Shown: one piece after another, positions 848 through 11,091 of the stretch
Layout of the letters: every line of letters begins with the position of its first letter
Position numbering within the stretch: position 1 is the first letter of the stretch
Source: Synergistaceae bacterium
Lineage (GTDB): Bacteria; Synergistota; Synergistia; Synergistales; Aminobacteriaceae
NCBI GenBank assembly: GCA_031270755.1
Contig: JAISWV010000078.1
Coordinates: 1 to 11,244 of the forward strand
Direction: 5' to 3'
DNA: 11,244 bases
Notes under the pieces: model-generated
The model's database searches: none
Seen by the model: only the letters and a program-made list of their open reading frames with translations
Told to the model about the DNA's origin: nothing
Position numbers and translations under genes: made by a program

Positions 848-852
848 GGAGG
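848..852 (+). promoter_or_regulatory. Shine-Dalgarno site that decides the start of the glycosyltransferase gene
   Basis: GGAGG at 848-852 overlaps the upstream in-frame GTG at 852, so it cannot serve that codon. The next in-frame start is TTG at 864, eleven bases downstream, which is a workable though slightly long spacing. ATG codons at 888 and 894 have no comparable site. I therefore place the start at 864; an annotation using 852 would add four residues. Confidence 0.6.
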
Positions 853-863
853 TGTCACTCTTT

Positions 864-2603
864 TTGAGCGTTTCCTACAATTTGCAGATGATAATGGGCT
901 GCGTGAGCGCGGCCCTCATGTGCATCTTCGTTCAATACGCGGTGAAAAGATCTTTCGAGCCGCGCCAGTACGGCTATTTACGCGATCTGATTCTCGTGGG
1001 AGGATGGCTGCTGCTGGCGATCTGGTTTGGCTCGCCCCAGTCCCGCTTTGTCGTGGGAGCCGCCTTTCTGTCGGGAATCGTCGGTTTGACGGAAAACTTC
1101 TGGCCAGGGCGGCCGGGACGATGGGGGTATCTTTTCATCGGTCTTTGCTGCGCCCTCTTCGGACCTTCCATCAGCTTCATAAGCTTCGTCGACGGAGAGT
1201 ATATTTATCTGACTCCGTTGACGTCGATTGTCGTCACCACTTTGTGGTTTTCGCTTTTCCCCATGATTCTCCAGCAGTTGGACACCATCCCCGGCCTGGT
1301 GGGCTATATGCTGGCCGTGACCTTTTCGCTCATGCTGATTTCCGTGGTTCTGGCCGTACGCGGCATGCAGGACGCTTTTTTCATGTCTTTCGCCGGGCTG
1401 GTGTTTTTGGGGGCTTTTTGGAGCCGCTTCAGCAACTTTTACCGCCAGGCAGGCAAATCCATGTCGGCGATGTGGGGGACTCTGGCCGCTGGAACGGCAA
1501 TCCTGGGGGTCAGCAAGGGCATTGTGTTCAGCTCGATGCTTTATTTGTCCTTGGGGCTTTTCGCCATTCCCATGGCGGAAGCCTCTTTACACTTGGTGAA
1601 TTTGGTGTTTTCCGATACTTCCCACGGAACGGAGCGGCTTTACCGCAAATTGATCCGTAGCGGGCTGGAACATCCCGACGCGGTGCGCCTGATAGCCGGT
1701 CTTTGCGCTTTTCTGGGTATCGCTACGGCTCTATCCCAGTACCCCGGAGATTACAAGGCGTGGATCTGGTGGGGAGTCGCGGGGACCTTCGTCCTTGCCG
1801 TGCTCGTCCCCCTGATTCTCAAGTACAGGAACCGGTCTCCCATGTCCCACGCAAAACCCCGCTTGTGGGGCGTCAACATCGACAATATGTCCCTCAACTA
1901 CGCTTTGGCGAGGGCCAGGGGGATACTTTTGTCCTCCAGGGAAACGAAGTTGGTCTCGACTGTAAACGCCCTGGGGATGGACGAAGCCGTCCGCGACGTT
2001 GAATACCACCGTATCTTGAGGCGCTCCGCCATGGTTTTATCGGATGGAATCGGTCTTTTGTGGGGCCTGCGCTTTTTGGGAATGCCCATACAAGAGCGGG
2101 TGACGGGGATCGATTTTGCCGAGCAGCTTTGCCGGATGGCGGCGGTGGAGGGATGGCCGGTCTATTTTCTGGGGTCTCAGGGCAAGACGGCGCTGGTTTG
2201 CGCCAAGGTTCTGGCGGCGAGATATCCGGGGCTCATGGTCGCGGGTGCGCGGGACGGTTATTTCGGCATGGACGACCCCGCTGTGGCGGACACCATCGCC
2301 TGCTCCGGGTCGAAGATTCTTTTCGTGGCGATGGGAATTCCTCGGCAGGAAAAGTGGGTGGCCCGTCACTCGAAGCGTTTGGGCGGTGTCCTGGCCGTCG
2401 GAGTGGGAGGGGCTTTCGACGTGTTGTCCGGTAATTTGAGGCGCGCGCCGAAGATCGTTCAGAAATTGGGGCTGGAATGGTTTTTCAGGCTGTGCCAGGA
2501 GCCCTATCGGTGGAAAAAAGATTTGAGACTGATCTTTTTCGTTGCCCGCGTTTTCGCGACGCGCGTAGGCCTCTACACTTGGAAAGGGGAAGACCACGAA
2601 TGA
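864..2603 (+). CDS. Membrane glycosyltransferase: degenerate WecA/MraY-like domain fused to a WecG/TagA/CpsF (GT26) domain
   Basis: The 579-residue protein has two parts. Residues ~1-320 are strongly hydrophobic with about ten membrane segments. They follow the layout of WecA/MraY-type polyprenyl-phosphate sugar-1-phosphate transferases, but the catalytic motifs are changed: the expected GxxDD reads GLTEN (1083-1097), NxxDGxDG reads as QQLDTIPG (from 1275), and neither MGDxGS nor HLHHRL is present. Residues ~333-571 are a GT26 domain: STVNALG with the catalytic-type Thr366, LSDGIG with Asp394 (28 residues later, as in TagA), RVTGIDF, GIPRQEKW, GVGGAFDVLSGNLRRAP and GLEWFFRL. GT26 enzymes transfer a sugar from a UDP-sugar to a lipid-linked sugar at the inner membrane face, in teichoic acid, enterobacterial common antigen or capsule synthesis. 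The pseudo-transferase half may serve as membrane anchor or lipid-carrier docking site (inference). The substrate is unknown. The stop overlaps the next gene by ATGA. Confidence 0.85.
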   Translation: MSVSYNLQMIMGCVSAALMCIFVQYAVKRSFEPRQYGYLRDLILVGGWLLLAIWFGSPQSRFVVGAAFLSGIVGLTENFWPGRPGRWGYLFIGLCCALFGPSISFISFVDGEYIYLTPLTSIVVTTLWFSLFPMILQQLDTIPGLVGYMLAVTFSLMLISVVLAVRGMQDAFFMSFAGLVFLGAFWSRFSNFYRQAGKSMSAMWGTLAAGTAILGVSKGIVFSSMLYLSLGLFAIPMAEASLHLVNLVFSDTSHGTERLYRKLIRSGLEHPDAVRLIAGLCAFLGIATALSQYPGDYKAWIWWGVAGTFVLAVLVPLILKYRNRSPMSHAKPRLWGVNIDNMSLNYALARARGILLSSRETKLVSTVNALGMDEAVRDVEYHRILRRSAMVLSDGIGLLWGLRFLGMPIQERVTGIDFAEQLCRMAAVEGWPVYFLGSQGKTALVCAKVLAARYPGLMVAGARDGYFGMDDPAVADTIACSGSKILFVAMGIPRQEKWVARHSKRLGGVLAVGVGGAFDVLSGNLRRAPKIVQKLGLEWFFRLCQEPYRWKKDLRLIFFVARVFATRVGLYTWKGEDHE

Positions 2604-3064
2604 TCACTACAGTGGGTGAACTCATGGACCGTGACCTGACGGTCGTCAGGGAGCACAGTACGATCAGCCAGGCCATCGATATTTTTTATTCCCATAACGT
2701 GGCCGGTCTGCCTGTTGTGGACATGAACTGGCGGCTGGTGGGTTTTTTGTCCGAGACCGACATTTTACGGGCCGCGACGCCGTCGTATCTCGAAGTCCTC
2801 ACTCAAAGCTCGTTTTTGAGCGAAGAAGAGGACGAATTTGTGAGGCAGCTGGAAAAACTGGGAAAGCTTCCTGTCAGGGACTACATGACCCAGCCTCCCG
2901 TGGCCGTGGAGCCCTACGTGAGCCTCATGTCCATAGCCGACTTGATGATACGAAAACATCTTCGCCGCCTTCCTGTCGTGGAGGACGGGGTGTTGGTCGG
3001 CATCATCGACCGTAAAATGCTTTGGAATTTCATGCTCGAAGGATATGACCGCAATGTCGGATAA
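2600..3064 (+). CDS. CBS-domain pair protein
   Basis: This 154-residue protein consists almost entirely of two CBS domains. CBS1 is at residues ~5-60 (VGELMDRDLTVVREHSTISQ, then AGLPVVDMNWRLVGFLSETD). CBS2 is at ~93-150 (VRDYMTQPPVAVEPYVSLM, then RRLPVVEDGVLVGIIDRKML). A helical acidic linker rich in Glu (SEEEDEFVRQLEKLGKL) lies between them. CBS pairs bind adenine nucleotides (AMP, ADP, ATP, SAM) or related ligands and usually regulate a partner protein; no enzymatic domain is attached here. The ATG at 2600 overlaps the preceding stop in ATGA and has a purine-rich AAAGGGGAAG just upstream. A longer reading from 2477 would run inside the glycosyltransferase gene and is unlikely. Its place immediately before the ATPase genes makes a nucleotide-sensing regulator of that complex possible, but this is inference. 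Confidence 0.9.
   Translation: MITTVGELMDRDLTVVREHSTISQAIDIFYSHNVAGLPVVDMNWRLVGFLSETDILRAATPSYLEVLTQSSFLSEEEDEFVRQLEKLGKLPVRDYMTQPPVAVEPYVSLMSIADLMIRKHLRRLPVVEDGVLVGIIDRKMLWNFMLEGYDRNVG
3038..3043 (+). promoter_or_regulatory. Shine-Dalgarno site that decides the start of the stalk-like gene
   Basis: GAAGGA at 3038-3043 is only one base before the ATG at 3045 but ten bases before the in-frame ATG at 3054. The second ATG is the better start; the choice changes the protein by three residues. Confidence 0.55.
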
Positions 3065-3470
3065 ATCGGCCGTCCCTTTTTCCAAGACCGAGGTTTTCTC
3101 CGGGTCCGGCGCGGCATTCGCCGGTGCAGCGTTCTCCGATCCGCTGGTTGAAACCCGGGGAAAACTCGAGGCTGTACGCAAGCAGCTGGCCTACGATATG
3201 GAAGACAAAAAAAACGAACTCGAGCGTTTCAAAGAAGAAACTTTGTGGCGTTTGAACGCCATGTCCGACCGCACCATCGAACTTGCCCGGATGAAAGAAA
3301 AAGACGTCGAAGAGTGCCTCGCTCGGGACAGAGAAAAATTGGAAGCGGAGCTGGCCGCCTGGAAAGAGCTCCTTTATGAACGGTTGCACGACGAAAAATT
3401 TCTCGATGTTTTGGTGAAAGACGCTTTCGACCGCTTGCTTCCTTCGCGAAATGGAGGCGATAGTACGTGA
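3054..3470 (+). CDS. Coiled-coil protein, putative V-ATPase peripheral-stalk (G/H-like) subunit
   Basis: This small 138-residue protein is not recognised by clear sequence motifs. The first ~30 residues are Gly/Ala/Ser/Phe-rich and probably disordered. Residues ~32-125 are a long, highly charged heptad-like helix (for example KLEAVRKQLAYDMEDKKNEL and ELARMKEKDVEECLARDREK) with no membrane segment, followed by a short hydrophobic end (FLDVLVKDAFDRLL). V/A-ATPases have peripheral stalks made of an E subunit paired with a coiled-coil G or H subunit, and the G/H gene commonly lies just before subunit I. Position and shape therefore support that role, though similarity alone would not. The gene overlaps the CBS gene by 11 bases, and its stop overlaps the subunit I start (GTGA at 3467-3470). 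Any coiled-coil accessory protein remains an alternative. Confidence 0.6.
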   Translation: MSDKSAVPFSKTEVFSGSGAAFAGAAFSDPLVETRGKLEAVRKQLAYDMEDKKNELERFKEETLWRLNAMSDRTIELARMKEKDVEECLARDREKLEAELAAWKELLYERLHDEKFLDVLVKDAFDRLLPSRNGGDST

Positions 3471-5470
3471 TAAAGCGTATGGCCAGGGTTACCTTATGGG
3501 GAGTACGCGATAAAAAAACGCCGATCGTCGCGCGGCTTTACGAGCTGGGAGTTTTCCACCTCGACAACGTGCCGGCCGACGACACGGCGGTCGATACCCA
3601 GGGCCTTCTCCTGGAAAAACTGAGAGAGCGAAGGAGAAGGGTCCTTGGCCTGATCGAGGCGCTCGAGTGGGATGAATGGAGGAAATTGACCGACGCCTTT
3701 GTCGAAAACGTTCGTTACAACCTCTTCGGCAACTTGGAGTTCATGATGGCCGAGATCGACAGGAGCCTCGAGCGCATCCAGTCGCGTCTTTCCCGGATTG
3801 AAGAAAGCCGGGAAAGTATGCAGAACATCTTTATGAAGCTGCAAAGAACCAACCTCATTCTGGCTCATGCCCGCGCATTCTTGGAACAAGAGCGTTCTTC
3901 CCGGGGCGTGGTGTCCATTTGGAGGCTTTCGCGCCAAGAACAGCACACCCTTGTTTCCAAAGTAAACGGAGAATTGGATTTTCTTCCCAGCGGGCATGAA
4001 AAGCCCTGGTTTCGCTATCACACGTTCGAGCTCAAAGACGGTTCCTCCGAATTCAAAGACGGTTCCTCCTTTCTCGTGACCAGCGCGTCTTACGAAGCAC
4101 AGTCCAGCATCGACCGAATCGTCGCCGACATGGAGGGTTCTCTTTGGACGTTTCCGGAAGGCCTCGAATCCGTTCCTTTCGTTCCCACCGACGACGAACC
4201 GGCCGCCGACGGGGCTGAGCCCGATAAAGCCGAGCCCGATGAAGAACCTCTGTTGGCGGCGGCGGAACGGATCAAACAAATTTCACAGGTCATGCCCGCG
4301 CAAAGGAGGGAAAACAAGCAAGAGCTGCGCAGGCTGAGCGATCAGTGGGGGGCGAACCTGGCCGCCGTTTACATTCTCTTGAACGAACGCCTGGAGCAGC
4401 TTCTCATGGAGGCGTCCGCCGCCGAGAACGAGGAATTTTTCAGCCTGGAAGGCTGGATTCCCGAGGACGACCTGGCGCGTACCGGGGCGGTGTTGAAAGA
4501 GGACTTCGGCGACGCCGTCGTCCTGCGCTCCAGGCCTCCCGACCCCGAAAAGGACGGAGCGGTTCCCACCGCTTTGCGAAACAACTCTCTTTTCAAGCCC
4601 TTCGAATTGTTTTTGAAGCTGTTGCGGGTGCCGAACTACAACGCCTACGACCCCTCTCCGTTGATCGGCATCTTCTTTCCTTTTTTCGCGGGCTGCATGG
4701 TGGGGGATATCGGCTACGGCGTGTTGATTTTGTGGCTGGGCTGGCATCTGAAGCAAAAGCGCTCGGAGGTCCCGCGGGATGTGGGAATCATTCTCATATT
4801 CGTCGCGTTTTGGAGCATCGTGTGGGGAGCTCTGTACGGTGAATTTCTGGGAGACACCGCCCATCGATTGCTGCACATGAGGCCGCTCTGGGTGGAGAGG
4901 TCCGAGGCGGTTTTGACGGTTATGGCGTTCAGCGTCGCTTTGGGAGGAGCTCATGTTTGCCTGGGGCTTCTTATCGGCATGATTCAGGGGATTCGCAATC
5001 GGCATCGTCATCAATGGATGGAACGGGGAGGCAATCTGCTGGTCATCCTGAGCTTGGTAACAGCTCTGGCGGTGCTGCGCTCGGAGCTGTCGAGCGCTCT
5101 TTTTTCCGTGCCCGTCACCCTGCTGGTCTTCGGACTGATTTTTTTGATACGCGGAGGAGGGATTGGGGGCGTCATCGAATCCTTGGGGACCATCGGCAAC
5201 ATCATCAGCTACGTCCGCATCGCCGCCATCGGCCTGTCGTCCGCCATCCTCGCCATGGTTGCCGGCACGTTCGTGGACATCTTCGGGGTCTCCATATTGG
5301 GGCTTTTCATGGCGTTTGCCATTCATCTTTTGAACTTCGTGCTGGCCATCGGAGGATCCGCCCTCCACGCGGCGCGGCTTCATTACGTGGAGTTCATGGG
5401 GAAGTTTTACGAGGACGGAACCCTCGAGTACAAACCGTTTGCCAAAAGAAGGAGGCTGTACAATGACTGA
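3467..5470 (+). CDS. ntpI: V/A-type ATPase membrane subunit I (a-type stator subunit)
   Basis: Subunit I forms the ion half-channels beside the rotor ring and anchors the peripheral stalks. The 667-residue length is typical. Residues ~1-385 are the soluble, mostly helical arm (start MIKRMARVTLWG, long coiled-coil around residues 85-145). Residues ~390-650 hold about seven or eight membrane helices, including the family motif GCMVGDIGYGVL and the late helix GNIISYVRIAAIGLSSAILA. In that helix Arg584 (codon 5216-5218) corresponds to the essential arginine that interacts with the rotor carboxylate. The C-terminal stretch ALHAARLHYVEFMGKFYEDG is also characteristic. The GTG start sits nine bases after GGAGG (3453-3457). 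Two oddities lie in the soluble arm: an in-frame 21-base duplication near residue 190 and an acidic, proline-rich low-complexity segment at residues ~243-264. The membrane half looks functional. Confidence 0.95.
   Translation: MIKRMARVTLWGVRDKKTPIVARLYELGVFHLDNVPADDTAVDTQGLLLEKLRERRRRVLGLIEALEWDEWRKLTDAFVENVRYNLFGNLEFMMAEIDRSLERIQSRLSRIEESRESMQNIFMKLQRTNLILAHARAFLEQERSSRGVVSIWRLSRQEQHTLVSKVNGELDFLPSGHEKPWFRYHTFELKDGSSEFKDGSSFLVTSASYEAQSSIDRIVADMEGSLWTFPEGLESVPFVPTDDEPAADGAEPDKAEPDEEPLLAAAERIKQISQVMPAQRRENKQELRRLSDQWGANLAAVYILLNERLEQLLMEASAAENEEFFSLEGWIPEDDLARTGAVLKEDFGDAVVLRSRPPDPEKDGAVPTALRNNSLFKPFELFLKLLRVPNYNAYDPSPLIGIFFPFFAGCMVGDIGYGVLILWLGWHLKQKRSEVPRDVGIILIFVAFWSIVWGALYGEFLGDTAHRLLHMRPLWVERSEAVLTVMAFSVALGGAHVCLGLLIGMIQGIRNRHRHQWMERGGNLLVILSLVTALAVLRSELSSALFSVPVTLLVFGLIFLIRGGGIGGVIESLGTIGNIISYVRIAAIGLSSAILAMVAGTFVDIFGVSILGLFMAFAIHLLNFVLAIGGSALHAARLHYVEFMGKFYEDGTLEYKPFAKRRRLYND
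4032..4069 (+). repeat. In-frame 21-base tandem duplication within subunit I
   Basis: A 17-base exact match (TCAAAGACGGTTCCTCC) occurs at 4032-4048 and again at 4053-4069, with a period of 21 bases. It encodes two successive copies of KDGSS followed by EF or FL. The perfect nucleotide identity suggests a recent slippage or duplication event that added seven residues without breaking the frame. Confidence 0.85.
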
Positions 5471-5684
5471 GAAAGCGATTATGGCACTGGCCGCGGCTTT
5501 GGCCGTCGCCGTTCCCGCCTTGGCCACCGCTTACGCCCAGGCGCGCATTGGAAGTTCGGGAGCGGGCACCGTCGCGGAAAAACCGGAAACCTCGGGAACC
5601 ATCATCATCCTGGAGGCCATTCCCGAGACGATGGTCATCCTGGGCTTCGTCGTCGCCATCATGATTATCATGAGGATGGCTTGA
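5463..5684 (+). CDS. ntpK: V/A-type ATPase rotor-ring subunit K (c-type proteolipid)
   Basis: The 73-residue protein is a single hairpin of two membrane helices, the basic unit of the ion-carrying rotor ring. TM1 covers residues ~5-27 (Ala/Val-rich) and TM2 ~46-71. The polar loop and glycine pattern RIGSSGAGTVAEKPE match V-type c subunits. TM2 contains EAIPETMVILGF, where Glu55 (codon 5625-5627) is the expected ion-binding carboxylate. Its distance from the loop (13 residues after Glu42) agrees with archaeal-type K proteins. Gln26 in TM1 together with Glu55-Thr56 resembles a sodium-binding arrangement, so Na+ coupling is possible. The ATG at 5463 is seven bases after AAGGAGG (5449-5455) and the gene overlaps the end of subunit I by eight bases. 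An in-frame ATG at 5439 lies ahead of this site and is rejected. It is the short two-helix form, not the doubled four-helix form found in some bacteria. Confidence 0.93.
   Translation: MTEKAIMALAAALAVAVPALATAYAQARIGSSGAGTVAEKPETSGTIIILEAIPETMVILGFVVAIMIIMRMA
5672..5675 (+). promoter_or_regulatory. Shine-Dalgarno site supporting the TTG start of subunit E
   Basis: GAGG lies at the end of the subunit K gene, ten bases before the TTG at 5686. The alternative ATG at 5704 has only GGA upstream. This favours TTG as the start, one base after the subunit K stop. Confidence 0.5.
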
Positions 5685-5685
5685 G

Positions 5686-6357
5686 TTGCCGGACGCTCGA
5701 CTCATGGAAGCGCCGAGGGCCGACGCGTCGAGAGCCGACGACCTGGCGGGCTTCAAGGAAGCTCTGCTGGCGCAGCACAGAGAGCGCTGTCTTGTCTTGA
5801 AACGCTCCGTGGATGAAGACCTTGCCGATATCATTACGGCGCGCCGCCTGGAGGTGGAACGTATCGTTCACGGCCTGTGCCGCGCCCGGGAAAAACGTTT
5901 CGGCGAAGGGTTGAAGGCCAATCGCCGCCGTGCGGAGCTTCAGAGGAAAATGTTCAAGATCGAGCTGCAGGACGGATTTCTCGAACATTTGGAAGAAAAC
6001 GTGCGCGCGCGCCTGGAGGCTTTTCGCCGTTCGCCCCGGTATGGGGAGACGATGGAATCTTTGGTTGCGGAGACAAGGGAAAACTTCCCCTTCCCCTCCA
6101 TCGTGTGGGTGGAAAAAGGAGACGCCGTTTTTTTGAAGCCCTGCGAGCCGAGCGGACCCGGCGAAAGCGTCTTGGAGGTCCGCGAGGGATTGAAAGACGT
6201 CTGGGGCGGCCTCCTGCTCGAAGAAAAAGAAAGCGGCCGGCTCCTGGACAACACGTTTCGGACCAGGTGGCGGCGTTTGCGCCCTTTCTTCATCGCGGAG
6301 CTGGGGGAAATCTTCACCGAACTTTTCGAGTTTCCGGCACTGGAGACGCGCAAATGA
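5686..6357 (+). CDS. ntpE: V/A-type ATPase peripheral-stalk subunit E
   Basis: Subunit E pairs with a G/H-type coiled-coil to form the stator stalk that holds the A3B3 head against subunit I. The 223-residue length is close to normal. The N-terminal half (~20-115) is a charged helix rich in Arg, Glu and Leu. The C-terminal half is globular and carries the best family signature: a Gly-Gly then Leu-rich strand followed by the conserved asparagine-threonine turn (GGLLLEEKESGRLLDNTF) and a terminal helix (RRLRPFFIAELGEIF). The start is taken as TTG 5686; the ATG at 5704 would shorten it by six residues. Its stop overlaps the subunit A start as ATGA (6354-6357), so the two are translationally coupled. 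In many V-ATPase operons genes for C and F lie near E and A; neither is found on either side here. Confidence 0.87.
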   Translation: MPDARLMEAPRADASRADDLAGFKEALLAQHRERCLVLKRSVDEDLADIITARRLEVERIVHGLCRAREKRFGEGLKANRRRAELQRKMFKIELQDGFLEHLEENVRARLEAFRRSPRYGETMESLVAETRENFPFPSIVWVEKGDAVFLKPCEPSGPGESVLEVREGLKDVWGGLLLEEKESGRLLDNTFRTRWRRLRPFFIAELGEIFTELFEFPALETRK

Positions 6358-6387
6358 AAGAAATGAAAGAAAATTCAATGAAAGAGG
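6354..6387 (+). repeat. Nine-base repeat carrying three successive ATG codons at the start of subunit A
   Basis: ATGAAAGAA occurs twice in direct succession (6354-6371), followed after AATTCA by a near copy, ATGAAAGAG (6378-6386). The product begins MKEMKENSMKED, so three possible start codons lie within 27 bases. The repeat is outside the conserved domain and looks like replication slippage. Confidence 0.75.
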
Positions 6388-8279
6388 ATTTGCCGAAGGG
6401 TTCGATAACGGGGGTCTCGGGGCCGGTCATCACCGTCAAGACGGTTACCGTCGAGACGGGCGCCGCCAAGACGGATTCGTATGCCCGCATGTTCGAGGTG
6501 GCGCGGATCGGCGGGGCGTCCGCGAACCTTCTCGGAGAAGTTGTCCGGATCCGGGGGAAAGAGGCGGACGTCCAAGTCTACGGAGACACGACGGGGCTGG
6601 CCGCGGGAGAAGAGGTCTTTTTTACCGGAGAGCTCTTGAGCGTGGACTTGGGCCCCGGTTTTTTGGGAGAAATTCTGGACGGTCTCGGACGCTTTCTCCG
6701 CATTCCCGGCGGGCCGACCAAGGGGGAGATTTACCTCGAGCCAGGGCTGGCCGCCTTCCCGGACGAAAGGCTGTGGCGCTTCACGCCATCCGCGGCGGAA
6801 GGAGACGCGGTCGTCCCGGGGGATATTTTGGGAACCGTCGTCGAAAAAAAGAGTTTTCTCCATCGTATTTTGATTCCCCAGCTTGTGTCAACCCGGGAAA
6901 CAATCGCGTGGATCGCCCCGGAGGGAGACTACCTTTCGCGGGAGTGTATATGCCGATTGGCGAGCGGGATCGAACTTTCTTTGGCGCAGCGGTGGGCGGT
7001 CCGCGTGCCCAGGCCCGCCAAGGCGCGTTTGCCCCTGGAGCGTCCGCTGCTGACGGGACAGCGCGCACTGGACACGCTTTTTCCTCTGGCGTTGGGCGGC
7101 GCGGCCTCCGTGATCGGAGGTTCCGGCACGGGAAAGACCTTCGTGCAGCGGTCTCTGGCGAAGTATTGCGACGCCGACGTCATGGTTTATGTCGGATGCG
7201 GAGGGCGGGGCGGCGAAACGGCGGAGGTCTTCGAAGAGTTTTCCGGAATCGAGAGCCGGGGAATCCCGCTGAAAGACCGCACGGTGTTCGTCGCGCACAC
7301 GTCCAACATGCCGACAGCGGCACGGGAGACCGGCGTCTATTTGGGAATGACCTTGGCCGAGTACTATCGGGATATGGGGTACAACGCCGTCGTCATGGTC
7401 GATTCCATGTCCCGGTGGGCGGAGGCTTCCAGGGAAATCGAAAGCCATCTCGAAGAATTTTCCGGAGAAAGAGGCTATCCAGCTTGTCTTGGGAGCCATT
7501 TAACCGGCTATTGCGAGCGCGCGGGGCATGTGGAAACCCTGGGCGCTCCTTCACTGAAAAACCCTTCCCCGCGCCGCGGTTCGGTGAGCCTGATCAACGC
7601 CTTTTCGCTGGAGGAAGGAAATTGGGGAGCGGATTTTTTCGAGTCGGCGGCCCAGGCCGGATTGAGCGCGGCCGGCGTGCATTGGAAACTGGACAAAACC
7701 CTTGCCCAAACCCGCTGGTTTCCCGCCATCGACATCCGGGAAAGCTATTCGCTTTACGAAGAGGCCGTCGCGAACGCTCTGACCCACGACGCGGGCCAAG
7801 ACTGGCCGGATTTGAAAGAATATTTGAAGAACGTCCTGCTACGTCAACGGGAGCTTTCCGATTCGAGACGCTTCACCGGCGAAAACTCGCTTTCCGAAGA
7901 AGACCGGTGGCTCCTCTTCCACGCCGAAACCCTGAAAATCGTTTTCCTGCGGCAGAGCGCCTTGGACGCGAAAGACGCCTGCGCTTCGCCGGCAAGCTCG
8001 GCGGCGATACTGCGGCTTCTCAAGGCGCTGGACGACAGGGTGCGAAAGTTTTTGAACGAAGGGCTCCGCTGTGACGACGTGATCGGCGTGTCCATGAGAC
8101 CGGAGCTGATCGCCTTGCGCGAACTGCCGGAGGATCTCACCAATAAAGGACAAGAGTGGCTGGAGCTTTTTTCTATCGAACTCGCCAAATTGACCGAACT
8201 CACCACAAACTCCACGAAACCCATTAAACCCACCAAACAACCGGCTGACGGAGAGGCAATGCAGGAGGCGGTACCATGA
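6354..8279 (+). CDS. ntpA: V/A-type ATPase subunit A, divergent, lacking the catalytic glutamate
   Basis: Subunit A normally carries the catalytic nucleotide sites of the A3B3 head. At 641 residues it is somewhat long. The N-terminal beta-barrel begins ITGVSGPVI; LSVDLGPGFL and WAVRVPRPAKARLPLERPLL follow in the expected order. Walker A is GGSGTGKT (residues 255-262, Lys261), where family members usually read GPFGSGKT. The next motif is VGCGGRGGE instead of VGCGERGNE, so the catalytic Glu, 23 residues after the Walker Lys, is Gly284 (codon GGG, 7203-7205). Walker B with following residues is VDSMSRWAEASRE (Asp350) rather than DSTSRWAEA. Later blocks GYPACLGSHL and FPAID(I)RESYSLYEEA fit subunit A, not FliI or F1 subunits. 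The C-terminus has an unusual Thr/Lys/Pro tail. ATG 6354 is eight bases after GGAG (6342-6345); in-frame ATGs at 6363 and 6378 are alternatives. It is a full-length open frame, so it appears to be maintained. Confidence 0.92.
   Translation: MKEMKENSMKEDLPKGSITGVSGPVITVKTVTVETGAAKTDSYARMFEVARIGGASANLLGEVVRIRGKEADVQVYGDTTGLAAGEEVFFTGELLSVDLGPGFLGEILDGLGRFLRIPGGPTKGEIYLEPGLAAFPDERLWRFTPSAAEGDAVVPGDILGTVVEKKSFLHRILIPQLVSTRETIAWIAPEGDYLSRECICRLASGIELSLAQRWAVRVPRPAKARLPLERPLLTGQRALDTLFPLALGGAASVIGGSGTGKTFVQRSLAKYCDADVMVYVGCGGRGGETAEVFEEFSGIESRGIPLKDRTVFVAHTSNMPTAARETGVYLGMTLAEYYRDMGYNAVVMVDSMSRWAEASREIESHLEEFSGERGYPACLGSHLTGYCERAGHVETLGAPSLKNPSPRRGSVSLINAFSLEEGNWGADFFESAAQAGLSAAGVHWKLDKTLAQTRWFPAIDIRESYSLYEEAVANALTHDAGQDWPDLKEYLKNVLLRQRELSDSRRFTGENSLSEEDRWLLFHAETLKIVFLRQSALDAKDACASPASSAAILRLLKALDDRVRKFLNEGLRCDDVIGVSMRPELIALRELPEDLTNKGQEWLELFSIELAKLTELTTNSTKPIKPTKQPADGEAMQEAVP
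8206..8241 (+). repeat. Degenerate nine-base tandem repeat in the 3' end of subunit A
   Basis: Four units of nine bases can be aligned: CAAACTCCA, CGAAACCCA, TTAAACCCA, CCAAACAAC. The surrounding + strand from about 8191 is nearly all A and C, unlike the rest of the gene. It encodes a Thr/Lys/Pro-rich tail (NSTKPIKPTKQP) that ordinary subunit A proteins lack. Confidence 0.65.
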
Positions 8280-9712
8280 CGCTCCAACGCAAACTCTACA
8301 GACAGGGTTCGCGTGGAATCAAGAGCATATCCGGTTCTCTTCTTTTCGTCGGGAACATGACGGGCGCGGGCTGCGGCGAGCTGGTAACGATAAGCGGCGA
8401 AGGTTCTGAGAAGACGGGACAGGTTATACAGATCAAGGACGACCTTTGCGTCATCCAGCTCTTTGACGACACGTTGGGGCTCGAAACGGGACGAGCCACC
8501 GTGTGGATGGAACGCGACGTGGCGAAGATCGGGGTGGGAAAGGCCCTGTTGGGGCGCGTTTTGAACGGCCGAGGACAGCCCGCCGACGGAAAGAGCCTTT
8601 ACGGTGCGGAAAAGTTCATCCCCGTCAGCGGTCCGCCAATCAACCCCGCCGTCAGAATACCCCCCAACGGCGCTATCGAGACGGGAATATCCGCCCTGGA
8701 CCTGATGAACACCCTGGTGCGGGGGCAGAGGCTGCTTTTGTGTGCAGGCCCCGGGCTGCCTGCCGGTGAAATCGCGGCGCGAGTGGCGGCTCAAGCGCAG
8801 ATTCCCGGCAAAGACAACGATTTTCTCGTGGTATTCGCCGCCCTGGGGATCACCAGCCGCGAGGCGGATCTTTTCATGGAGGCATTCGAACGCGGCGGCG
8901 TGACGGACAGGGGAGTGTTCGTGCTGAACAGGGCGGGCGATCCGATTGCGGAGCGTCTTTTAGCGCCGCGGGTGGCCTTGAGCGTCGCCGAATATTTTGC
9001 TTTCGTCAAGGGGTACGACGTATTCGTGGTCATGACGGACATGCTCCGTTACTGCGAGGCCCTTCGGGAGATCAGCGCCGCCCGGAAAGATATCCCGGGC
9101 CGAAGGGGATATCCTGTCGCTATGTATTCCGACCTGGCCGAACTTTACGAACGCTCCGGCTGCGTCCAGGGATGTCCGGGGAGCGTGACGCAGCTTCCGG
9201 TGATCACCGTGCCCGGTGACGATGCTGCGCACCCGGCGGCCGATCTTTCGGCGCAGCTCACCGACGGGCGGATCGTTTTGGACCGGGAGCTGCACGCCAA
9301 AGGTATTTTCCCTCCCGTGGACGTACTTGGTAGCTTGTCCCGATCCATGAACAGAGGGATAGGAAATAATAAAACCTTCGAATCTCACCGTGTCCTTGCC
9401 GATCAGCTTTACGCCGCTTACGCCAAGGCGAAGGAAATGAAAAACCAGCGGCAAATTGCCTCCGACAGGCTCTCCGACGCGAGAGAGCATTACCTGAGAT
9501 TCGGGGACGCCTTCGAAAAATCCTTCATCGGCCAAAAGCGAGGGCAGCCAGGGCAATTCGAAAGAAGGACTTTAGCCCAATCCGAGGCGATAGCGTGGAA
9601 GGTCTTGAGCCAGCTGCCCATGGAAGAACTGTCGGGCCTGCCTCGGGCGCTCTTGGAGCGAAAAATCGCCATTGGCGCGGCGTCGCCGGAAAAATCCGGA
9701 GGCCCGAAATGA
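8276..9712 (+). CDS. ntpB: V/A-type ATPase subunit B (non-catalytic head subunit)
   Basis: Subunit B alternates with A in the head and contributes the arginine finger. The 478-residue length is normal. In order: an N-terminal barrel (GELVTISGEGSEKTGQVIQI), LLGRVLNGRGQPADG, GPPINPAVRIPPNGAIETGISALDLMNTLVRGQ, the degenerate P-loop region AGPGLPAGEIAARVA typical of the non-catalytic subunit, VVFAALGITSREADLFMEAF, TDMLRYCEALREISAARKDIPGRRGYP, YSDLAELYERSG and GSLSRSMNRGIG. Arg356 (codon 9341-9343) in SLSRSM matches the arginine finger. The usual ARDxPxEFIQTG segment is altered (AVRIPPNGAIETG) and SGSGLPHNE reads AGPGLPAGE, so the protein is divergent but well built. Start ATG is seven bases after AGGAGG (8263-8268) and overlaps the subunit A stop as ATGA. 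Its own stop overlaps the next gene in the same way. Confidence 0.95.
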   Translation: MTLQRKLYRQGSRGIKSISGSLLFVGNMTGAGCGELVTISGEGSEKTGQVIQIKDDLCVIQLFDDTLGLETGRATVWMERDVAKIGVGKALLGRVLNGRGQPADGKSLYGAEKFIPVSGPPINPAVRIPPNGAIETGISALDLMNTLVRGQRLLLCAGPGLPAGEIAARVAAQAQIPGKDNDFLVVFAALGITSREADLFMEAFERGGVTDRGVFVLNRAGDPIAERLLAPRVALSVAEYFAFVKGYDVFVVMTDMLRYCEALREISAARKDIPGRRGYPVAMYSDLAELYERSGCVQGCPGSVTQLPVITVPGDDAAHPAADLSAQLTDGRIVLDRELHAKGIFPPVDVLGSLSRSMNRGIGNNKTFESHRVLADQLYAAYAKAKEMKNQRQIASDRLSDAREHYLRFGDAFEKSFIGQKRGQPGQFERRTLAQSEAIAWKVLSQLPMEELSGLPRALLERKIAIGAASPEKSGGPK

Positions 9713-11091
9713 GAAAAAATATCGGTATTTGGATTCTTTGGAGTGTTATTCTGTCACTCTCTTTCGCGCCACCCTGCGCGGCGTCGGTTTCCAGCGGCGA
9801 CCTTTCTCTTTCAGGCGAGCTCGACGAATTTTTCGAGAAAATTCAGCAAGGGGGCGTTGCGGACGTGGAAGCCGCTATTGCCGGAGGGCAGGACGTCAAC
9901 GTCACAAACAAGGCCGGTGTTTCGCCTCTTCTGGCCTTGGCCCAGAAGATCTCCTTCGAAAGGATGGAAAAGTGGGAGGTTTTTCGCAAAGAGAACCCCA
10001 AAGTCGTGCCCCTCGATCTTCCAATCCTCAGCCCTTACGCCATAGCTTCCCGCGACGTGGAAATTGCCAGGCTGCTGATCGGCGCGGGGGCCGCCATGAA
10101 AGAAACCGACTCCCGCGACGGCGGGCGGACGCTTTTGAACGTGTACATTCCCCTGGGCCCGGAGTTTGTCGAACTGCTCCTGAAAGCGGGGGCAGACCCC
10201 AACGATTATGTCTCAGGGGAAAATTTTCCTCTGCGGCTCGCTGTTCGGGTTTCCAGGCTTACGCCCGAACAGCGGCTCAGGACGGTGGAGCTTTTGCTGG
10301 CGGCCGGGGCCGACGTCAACAGAAAAAACCCCGGCGGAGAAACCGTCTTGAATTCAGCGGCGATGCCCTTCGTCATGTTTCTTCCACCGGAGGCGGAAAG
10401 GCGTCTGGTGGAGATGCTGCTGGGCGCTGGAACGGATGTCAACGCGACCTCCGATTGGGGGCTCACGCCCTTGATGAACTGGGCGATGGCGGGAAGCGCG
10501 GAGACGGTACGCCTCTTATTGGACGCGGGAGCGGACGTCGCCGCCAAAGACCGATACGGAACCACCGCGCTGATGATGGCGTTGACTAACGCCAGGTGGG
10601 ACAGCCCGCAGATCGTGGAGATGCTGATCGAACGCGGAGCCGACGTTCACGTTAGGGACGAGCTCGGAATGACGCCCCTTCATGTGGCGGCGGGACTGGG
10701 CAGCGCGCCCAAGACGGCCTTGCTTTTGAAAGCAGGGGCCGACCTCCTGGACGACCATCAATCGGGAGTGACGCCCCTGCACCTGGCCACGGGAGTTGTC
10801 GCGCAGGAAACCGAACGCAACAAGGGAACCTTTGAAGAAAGAAGAAAAAACGTCATGGAAGGACTGGTGCTTCTTCCTTCCAGGCACGAGGTTCTGGAGA
10901 TGGACTTTTCGGCCACGGTTCGGGTCCTGGTGGAGGCAGGAGCCAAGCTGAACGTCAGAAGCGGAAAGGATTTCAAAGACCCTCTTGGAGGCGACACGTC
11001 TTGTTTCTTGGAGAAGACCCCGTTGGAGTTCGCACGGATCCTGGGCAACGAAGAGGTCGTGCGATACCTGGAAAGCAAAGGAGCCGAATAA
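9709..11091 (+). CDS. Exported ankyrin-repeat protein
   Basis: This 460-residue protein begins with a typical signal peptide: MRKN, a hydrophobic core of about 16 residues (IGIWILWSVILSLSFA) and a likely cleavage region near PCAAS around residue 26. No lipobox is visible. The mature part is built of roughly nine ankyrin-type repeats from residue ~40 to the end, with clear hallmarks LLKAGADPN, LLLAAGADVN, LLGAGTDVN, LLDAGADVAAKD, LIERGADVHVRDELGMTPLHVAA, LLKAGADL and GVTPLHLA. Some repeats are spaced by longer insertions, for example around residues 364-398. Ankyrin repeats bind other proteins; a location outside the cytoplasmic membrane is implied. The start ATG is six bases after GGAGG (9698-9702) and overlaps the subunit B stop as ATGA, so it is translationally coupled to the ATPase. 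A functional link with the ATPase is possible but unproven. A longer in-frame reading from 9595 lies inside subunit B and lacks the signal peptide at its start; it is not used. Confidence 0.9.
   Translation: MRKNIGIWILWSVILSLSFAPPCAASVSSGDLSLSGELDEFFEKIQQGGVADVEAAIAGGQDVNVTNKAGVSPLLALAQKISFERMEKWEVFRKENPKVVPLDLPILSPYAIASRDVEIARLLIGAGAAMKETDSRDGGRTLLNVYIPLGPEFVELLLKAGADPNDYVSGENFPLRLAVRVSRLTPEQRLRTVELLLAAGADVNRKNPGGETVLNSAAMPFVMFLPPEAERRLVEMLLGAGTDVNATSDWGLTPLMNWAMAGSAETVRLLLDAGADVAAKDRYGTTALMMALTNARWDSPQIVEMLIERGADVHVRDELGMTPLHVAAGLGSAPKTALLLKAGADLLDDHQSGVTPLHLATGVVAQETERNKGTFEERRKNVMEGLVLLPSRHEVLEMDFSATVRVLVEAGAKLNVRSGKDFKDPLGGDTSCFLEKTPLEFARILGNEEVVRYLESKGAE

Follow-up and report, generated by a model that had tools for sequence, protein, structure and literature searches.

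A V-ATPase operon without rotor genes in Synergistales, with a relaxed catalytic head and a conserved membrane part

The window, that is, the whole stretch of 11,244 nucleotides analysed here, carries on its forward (+) strand an operon for a V-ATPase of a third type, designated 'X', together with the genes that usually adjoin it. A gene for a WecG/TagA glycosyltransferase whose N-terminal region is long and hydrophobic (852..2603; PF03808) and a gene for a protein with two CBS domains (2600..3064; PF00571), both usual neighbours of this type, precede a coiled-coil-like protein located where subunit G/H is expected (3045..3470), which was assigned from position and composition, no family scoring above its cut-off. 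These are followed by the a/I subunit (3467..5470; PF01496, 93.5 bits), in which the arginine of ISYVRIAAIGLSSA is kept, and by the c/K proteolipid (5463..5684; PF00137, 58 bits), a single hairpin that retains the glutamate of its PET motif. Subunit E of the peripheral stalk (5686..6357; PF01991) matched its family with an E-value of 0.0043, under the cut-off, and its orthologue at locus L043 with 1e-10. Subunit A (6354..8279) and subunit B (8276..9712; NF003235, 530 bits) complete the operon. Approximately 390 largely hydrophobic residues without a Pfam match precede the WecG/TagA domain, and a homologue of this gene lies upstream of the 'X' type in most operons read, G076 being an exception. 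Likewise, the two-CBS-domain protein neighbours the 'X' type with or without a rotor and was not found in G076; it is conceivable as a nucleotide-sensing partner. Downstream, an ankyrin-repeat protein with a start that resembles a signal peptide by eye is encoded at 9709-11091, its ATG overlapping the stop codon of subunit B (ATGA).

Subunit A comprises 641 amino acids and was recognized by NF003220 and PF00006. It scored 525 bits against the V-type A subunit family NF003220, above the cut-off of 470, 519 bits against the narrower TIGR01043, below its cut-off of 972, and 176 bits against PF00006. An AlphaFold2 model (mean pLDDT 85.9, pTM 0.89, with 72 for the block 281-290) predicted a good fold. 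The first-pass annotation had called attention to the sequence GCGGRGGE in this subunit, and direct reading of 7194-7217 (gga tgc gga ggg cgg ggc ggc gaa, in the frame that opens with the ATG at 6354) bore this out. The catalytic glutamate of the GER motif is absent; in its place, equivalent by motif to T. thermophilus A/E257, stands Gly284, encoded by GGG at 7203..7205. It lies, as also claimed, 23 residues after Lys261 (7134-7136), and the first-pass annotation likens its position to that of Glu286 in the yeast A subunit.

The accompanying statement that the Walker motifs are otherwise kept proved correct for Lys261 and Thr262 of Walker A (7116..7139) and for Asp350 of Walker B (7401..7403) but not for their surroundings, as alignment placed Ser257 at the P-loop phenylalanine, turning GGFGTGKT into GGSGTGKT, and Met352 at the threonine adjacent to Asp350, turning DSTSRW into DSMSRW. 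We mapped the active-site residues of the Thermus and Enterococcus hirae enzymes onto the window by motif. In Thermus, A/E257, A/R258 and B/R360 have been named as catalytic residues (PMC8904598), and in E. hirae Lys238, Arg262 and B Arg350 have been described as contacting the gamma-phosphate (PMC5095293). Lys261, Thr262, Asp350 and the arm residue Arg285 were invariant across 48 aligned relatives, and the arginine finger of subunit B, Arg356 (9341-9343), is kept. The reading frame is intact, the nucleotide-binding residues are retained, and the loss of the catalytic glutamate is a natural one. The first-pass suggestion that another residue might substitute found no support: inspection by eye of residues 250-300 and 340-362 revealed no new acidic residue common to the glycine forms.

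An error in base calling, assembly or strain at 7203-7205 might be suspected in a draft genome of 446 contigs (2.68 Mb, 87% complete). However, the orthologues, which the first-pass annotation had proposed to check, ruled this out: glycine stands at this position in four other genomes, written GGC, GGA and GGG, and further relatives have Cys, Lys or Leu. Because the glycine codons of the five genomes read GGG, GGC, GGA, GGG and GGG, such an error is excluded even without the reads, and we attach practically no probability to it. The other proposed check, for a second, canonical subunit A in the same genome, was also positive, with canonical A and B subunits located on contig C216 and the A subunit reading GCGERGNE. 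Further canonical pieces of this genome comprised D on C287, a and c on C335, and D, C, a, c and F on C285; these fragments fit two canonical V-ATPases.

The first-pass interpretation, sound with respect to the glutamate loss, the orthologues and the canonical copy, had overlooked that the operon itself has lost subunits C, F and D. The usual gene order of the 'X' operon is wecG, CBS, G (a short coiled-coil ORF), a, c, E, C, F, A, B and D. At the junction of E and A (6354..6357), the site of C and F in relatives, the two genes of the window overlap by four bases (ATGA), leaving room for neither C nor F nor a remnant of them. To place this in context, we surveyed 81 genomes of the family, which yielded 21 'X'-type operons, all of which were read; outside the family, a search of 180 genomes of the order listed 33 'X'-type matches (45-52% identity), 20 of which, from seven families, were fetched and read. 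Thirty-two operons, 12 in the family and 20 outside it, bear rotor genes: C and F stand directly before A in all 32, and D follows B in 29, the other three contigs stopping before the position of D. C, F and D are absent from the remaining nine operons, those of the window, G068, G069, G067, G070, G072, G073, G075 and G076, which span five genera, the first three belonging to a single genus. The wecG-CBS-G neighbours accompany eight of the nine. In G076 (L057), a genome with 9% contamination, the 19.5 kb fetched with the operon showed no wecG, CBS or G-like gene, so that its peripheral stalk appears incomplete by sequence. The gene rlmH directly follows B in G070, G072 and G073 and lies behind D in G006.

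We then considered whether the rotor genes had been relocated. Pfam profiles of D, C and F matched only canonical-type copies in the nine rotorless genomes; in G076, canonical a and c accompany a third copy of C on C14. Profiles built for the D, C and F subunits of the 'X' type gave 107-544 bits in all four rotor-bearing control genomes. In the nine rotorless genomes, the own-type D profile reached at most 40 bits, always at canonical D except for two matches of 13 bits, and the C and F profiles reached at best 12.5 and 15.8 bits. Relocation of own-type rotor genes was therefore rejected on the basis of these profiles; the genomes are incomplete (82-98%), although each operon is continuous. 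For the window, the central shaft (D and F) and subunit C, which we take to be the counterpart of subunit d, were not found in the operon, nor was an own-type copy present elsewhere in the genome. Weak Pfam F matches with an in-frame TGA were seen at G006:C1:1025517-1025738 and G008:C1:1075929-1076171; the type-specific F profile encounters no stop in the G006 gene, and run-on of the alignment is likely. The ankyrin gene was also considered as a substitute for the rotor and dismissed, as the regions retrieved around the other eight rotorless operons contained no real relative; the one match in them, at L041, spans 36 residues from the end of B and lies outside the ankyrin gene. Owing to the loss of C, F and D, the head cannot on its own bring about rotation, regardless of its active site, and the complex is very probably not a self-sufficient rotary ATPase.

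Most rotorless genomes contain two canonical sets of D, C and F, with fewer pieces in the window's draft, and a hybrid rotary enzyme in which A3B3 borrows canonical D, F and C, slow or inactive in its glycine forms, would thus have its parts at hand. The surfaces that would receive such a rotor have nevertheless changed. Loops of A and B contact D in E. hirae (PMC3879392). The corresponding loops read approximately LVQLVGRDGLSEEDKW and RLRLIVGDDGL in the rotor-bearing copies that reach this region and are altered in all nine rotorless operons; in the window, the loop of A equivalent by motif and alignment to the rotor-contacting DSLSDND/DELSEED loop (7866..7901) has diverged, as has the rotor-contact loop of B. 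Some copies have insertions or deletions, with approximately 31 residues inserted in A of G069 (L041 8287-10209), 13 inserted in B of G068 (L039 1574-3127) and 15 deleted in B of G070. Moreover, canonical D scores no higher than 46 bits with the own-type D profile, compared with 305-374 bits for D of the 'X' type. We consider a hybrid enzyme quite improbable.

Replacement of the catalytic glutamate is shared by several of the rotorless operons. Among the 120 homologues listed, including the window, the position holds Glu in 113, Gly in four, and Cys, Lys and Leu in one each, the cysteine being that of P0003. Glycine was found in five of the nine rotorless A subunits (window, G068, G069, G075 and G076), while Glu is kept in the other four (G067, G070, G072 and G073). 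All 32 rotor-bearing copies carry GCGERGNE and GGFGTGKT, so that glutamate loss amounts to five of nine against none of 32 (p = 1.7e-4 by Fisher's test, which ignores relatedness). In the canonical A subunits of ten genomes, the nine rotorless ones and G071, GCGERGNE is kept in 18 of 18 copies. The P-loop phenylalanine, which in Thermus (A/F230) moves nearer to the triphosphate in the open site (PMC8904598), is lost in eight of the nine rotorless copies. Furthermore, the residues at the positions of Trp271, Met289, Pro297, Ala349, Thr352 and Tyr387, invariant in the aligned rotor-bearing copies of the family and in canonical copies, are changed in all nine. The metagenomic sequence P0005 (a contig of 9,584 bases) retains Glu in GCGERGSE and groups with the glycine copy of the window (support 99/94), so reversal or repeated loss of the glutamate must be considered.

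To trace these losses, we built quick trees of the individual genes. In the A tree, the nine rotorless copies group together with a support of 100, and the alternative that places G071, which bears a rotor, beside G072 and G073 of the same genus was not rejected (p-AU 0.058). In the B tree, G071 joins these rotorless members of its genus, and a single clade of the nine is rejected (p-AU 0.005); the a tree comes close to rejecting that clade (0.055), and the wecG and E trees are neutral. Long branches make the A tree less safe than the B tree. Two or more losses of the rotor would fit the trees, as would a single loss with restoration in G071. The Glu/non-Glu state requires at least three changes, in either direction, on the A tree, and the glutamate has probably been lost more than once.

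Subsequently, we compared selection on the individual subunits using pairwise NG86 estimates of dN/dS; synonymous sites were saturated in genus g3, leaving most ratios there undefined, and some of the ORFs used begin upstream of the true start, most markedly CBS and B of G068-G069. A and B are relaxed in the rotorless copies, their ratios being raised roughly three-fold: dN/dS of A was 0.22-0.37 in five rotorless pairs versus 0.06-0.09 in the eight rotor-bearing and canonical pairs that gave a defined value, and that of B was 0.19-0.34 in five versus 0.05-0.10 in seven. Consistent with this, the nucleotide-binding domain of A shows 66-84% identity in four rotorless pairs, compared with 96-99% in four rotor-bearing or canonical pairs. 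Subunit a is not relaxed, at 0.10-0.21 in five rotorless pairs versus 0.07-0.19 in seven rotor-bearing and canonical pairs, and c is slightly so, with 0.02-0.26 in five rotorless pairs versus 0.00-0.01 in rotor-bearing and 0.14-0.22 in canonical ones; E is about equal (0.15-0.38 versus 0.20-0.27). The same division appears among positions invariant in the rotor-bearing copies of the family: those that do not hold in every rotorless copy number 175 of 252 for A and 120 of 198 for B, compared with 22 of 147 for a and nine of 51 for c. The arginine of a and the glutamate of c that belong to the ion path are kept in all nine rotorless operons. The spacing of residues in c differs from the Na+ ligand set described in PMC2359735, so this comparison assigns neither Na+ nor H+.

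These values bear on two further explanations. The relaxed constraint on A and B, the lost C, F and D, and the loss of the glutamate in some copies could mark the whole operon as a relic heading for loss without a present function. All frames are nevertheless open in nine of nine genomes and five genera, and the dN/dS of subunit a equals that of rotor-bearing and canonical complexes; frames kept open at ratios well below one indicate that the rotorless proteins are still maintained, and we regard a relic as improbable, although less so than a hybrid enzyme. The main rival holds that a, c, E and G act as a second membrane part with which the canonical V1 and rotor can pair, for example for another ion or voltage range, with the operon's own A and B redundant and decaying. 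Full constraint on a and considerable constraint on c alongside relaxed A and B, together with the canonical D, C and F sets in the same genomes, agree with such an exchange. It must be set against canonical operons that already carry their own a and c, an 'X'-type subunit a only 24-30% identical to canonical a over the aligned stretch, and A and B genes that remain open in all nine genomes with dN/dS well under one. On balance, we judge this rival to be unlikely.

With moderate confidence, we favor a rotorless paralogous V-ATPase with a relaxed head, in which the function under selection resides mainly in the membrane part. Most simply, the glutamate loss is one sign among others that constraint has relaxed across the entire A3B3 head. 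In the proposed course of events, the central stalk (C, F and D) would have been lost from a paralogous V-ATPase; with the head no longer turning a rotor, constraint on A and B would have fallen, and the catalytic glutamate could then be lost. The head retains the residues expected to hold Mg-nucleotide (Lys261, Thr262, Arg285, Glu288 and Asp350, with Arg356 of B) and is presumably still tied to subunit a via the peripheral stalk. Judging from the sequences, the complex would assemble and would not hydrolyze ATP, although hydrolysis may persist in some forms because four of the nine rotorless A subunits and P0005 keep the glutamate. Since a and c keep the ion-path residues and most of the constraint, the selected function most likely lies in the membrane part. 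As a tentative specific form of the rotorless reading, A3B3 could constitute a static nucleotide-sensing cap that may gate or stabilize the membrane part, the complex being a non-rotary V-ATPase derivative with a and c as a nucleotide-gated or uncoupled ion path. The membrane part could be an ion path or a membrane assembly freed from rotary coupling; an ion-path role is plausible, if somewhat short of an even call. In Thermus, isolated Vo is reported to be shut by the soluble region of subunit a touching d, and Fo, without d, to conduct without a threshold (PMC7367684). Yeast Vo, as cited in the same article, is reported to be tight even without contact between a and d, making a free leak less likely.

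By descent, the rotorless operon is a V-ATPase variant and not a new kind of machine. It shares with the V/A-type ATPases of Thermus, Enterococcus hirae and Pyrococcus the A family, B, E, a and c, the operon logic and the nucleotide-binding residues; unlike them, it is without D, F and C, its catalytic glutamate is replaced, and its P-loop phenylalanine and rotor loops are changed. Closer still are the rotor-bearing 'X'-type operons of Synergistales (for example, L043 and L171-L190), with orthologous c, a, A and B and with wecG and CBS adjoining where the contig reaches, which differ from the window in having kept C, F, the glutamate and GGFGTGKT throughout, and D in 29 of 32. N-type ATPases are F-type enzymes with a rotor. 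They are described as being encoded by an additional rotary ATPase operon that accompanies the main one (PMC5376962), as is the case in the window's genome. The F1-like ATPases of Mycoplasma (gliding motor and MIB-MIP-associated) likewise are rotary-ATPase paralogues diverted from the usual task; they are F-type enzymes, for which gamma- and epsilon-like subunits have been reported (PMC3369863), whereas the window operon has no shaft and its membrane part is the best kept. The best families of the window's A and B are V-type, and the gliding ATPase family NF045863 gave them 72 and 97 bits, far under its cut-off of 600. In a search of named genomes, the best identity among the matches listed (at least 80 loci) was 45%, and none was titled Synergistota. 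We found no description of a rotorless V-ATPase operon in the open-licence literature searched, a body that mostly excludes subscription papers.

Rotary ATPases are usually taken to need a shaft, and an operon without D, F and C is nevertheless open in five genera. It offers a natural test of an uncoupled stator, head and membrane ring, as well as a natural set of A subunits in which loss of the catalytic glutamate accompanies loss of the rotor. Collectively, our findings suggest the conversion of a rotary pump into a complex that has ceased to work as a rotating pump.
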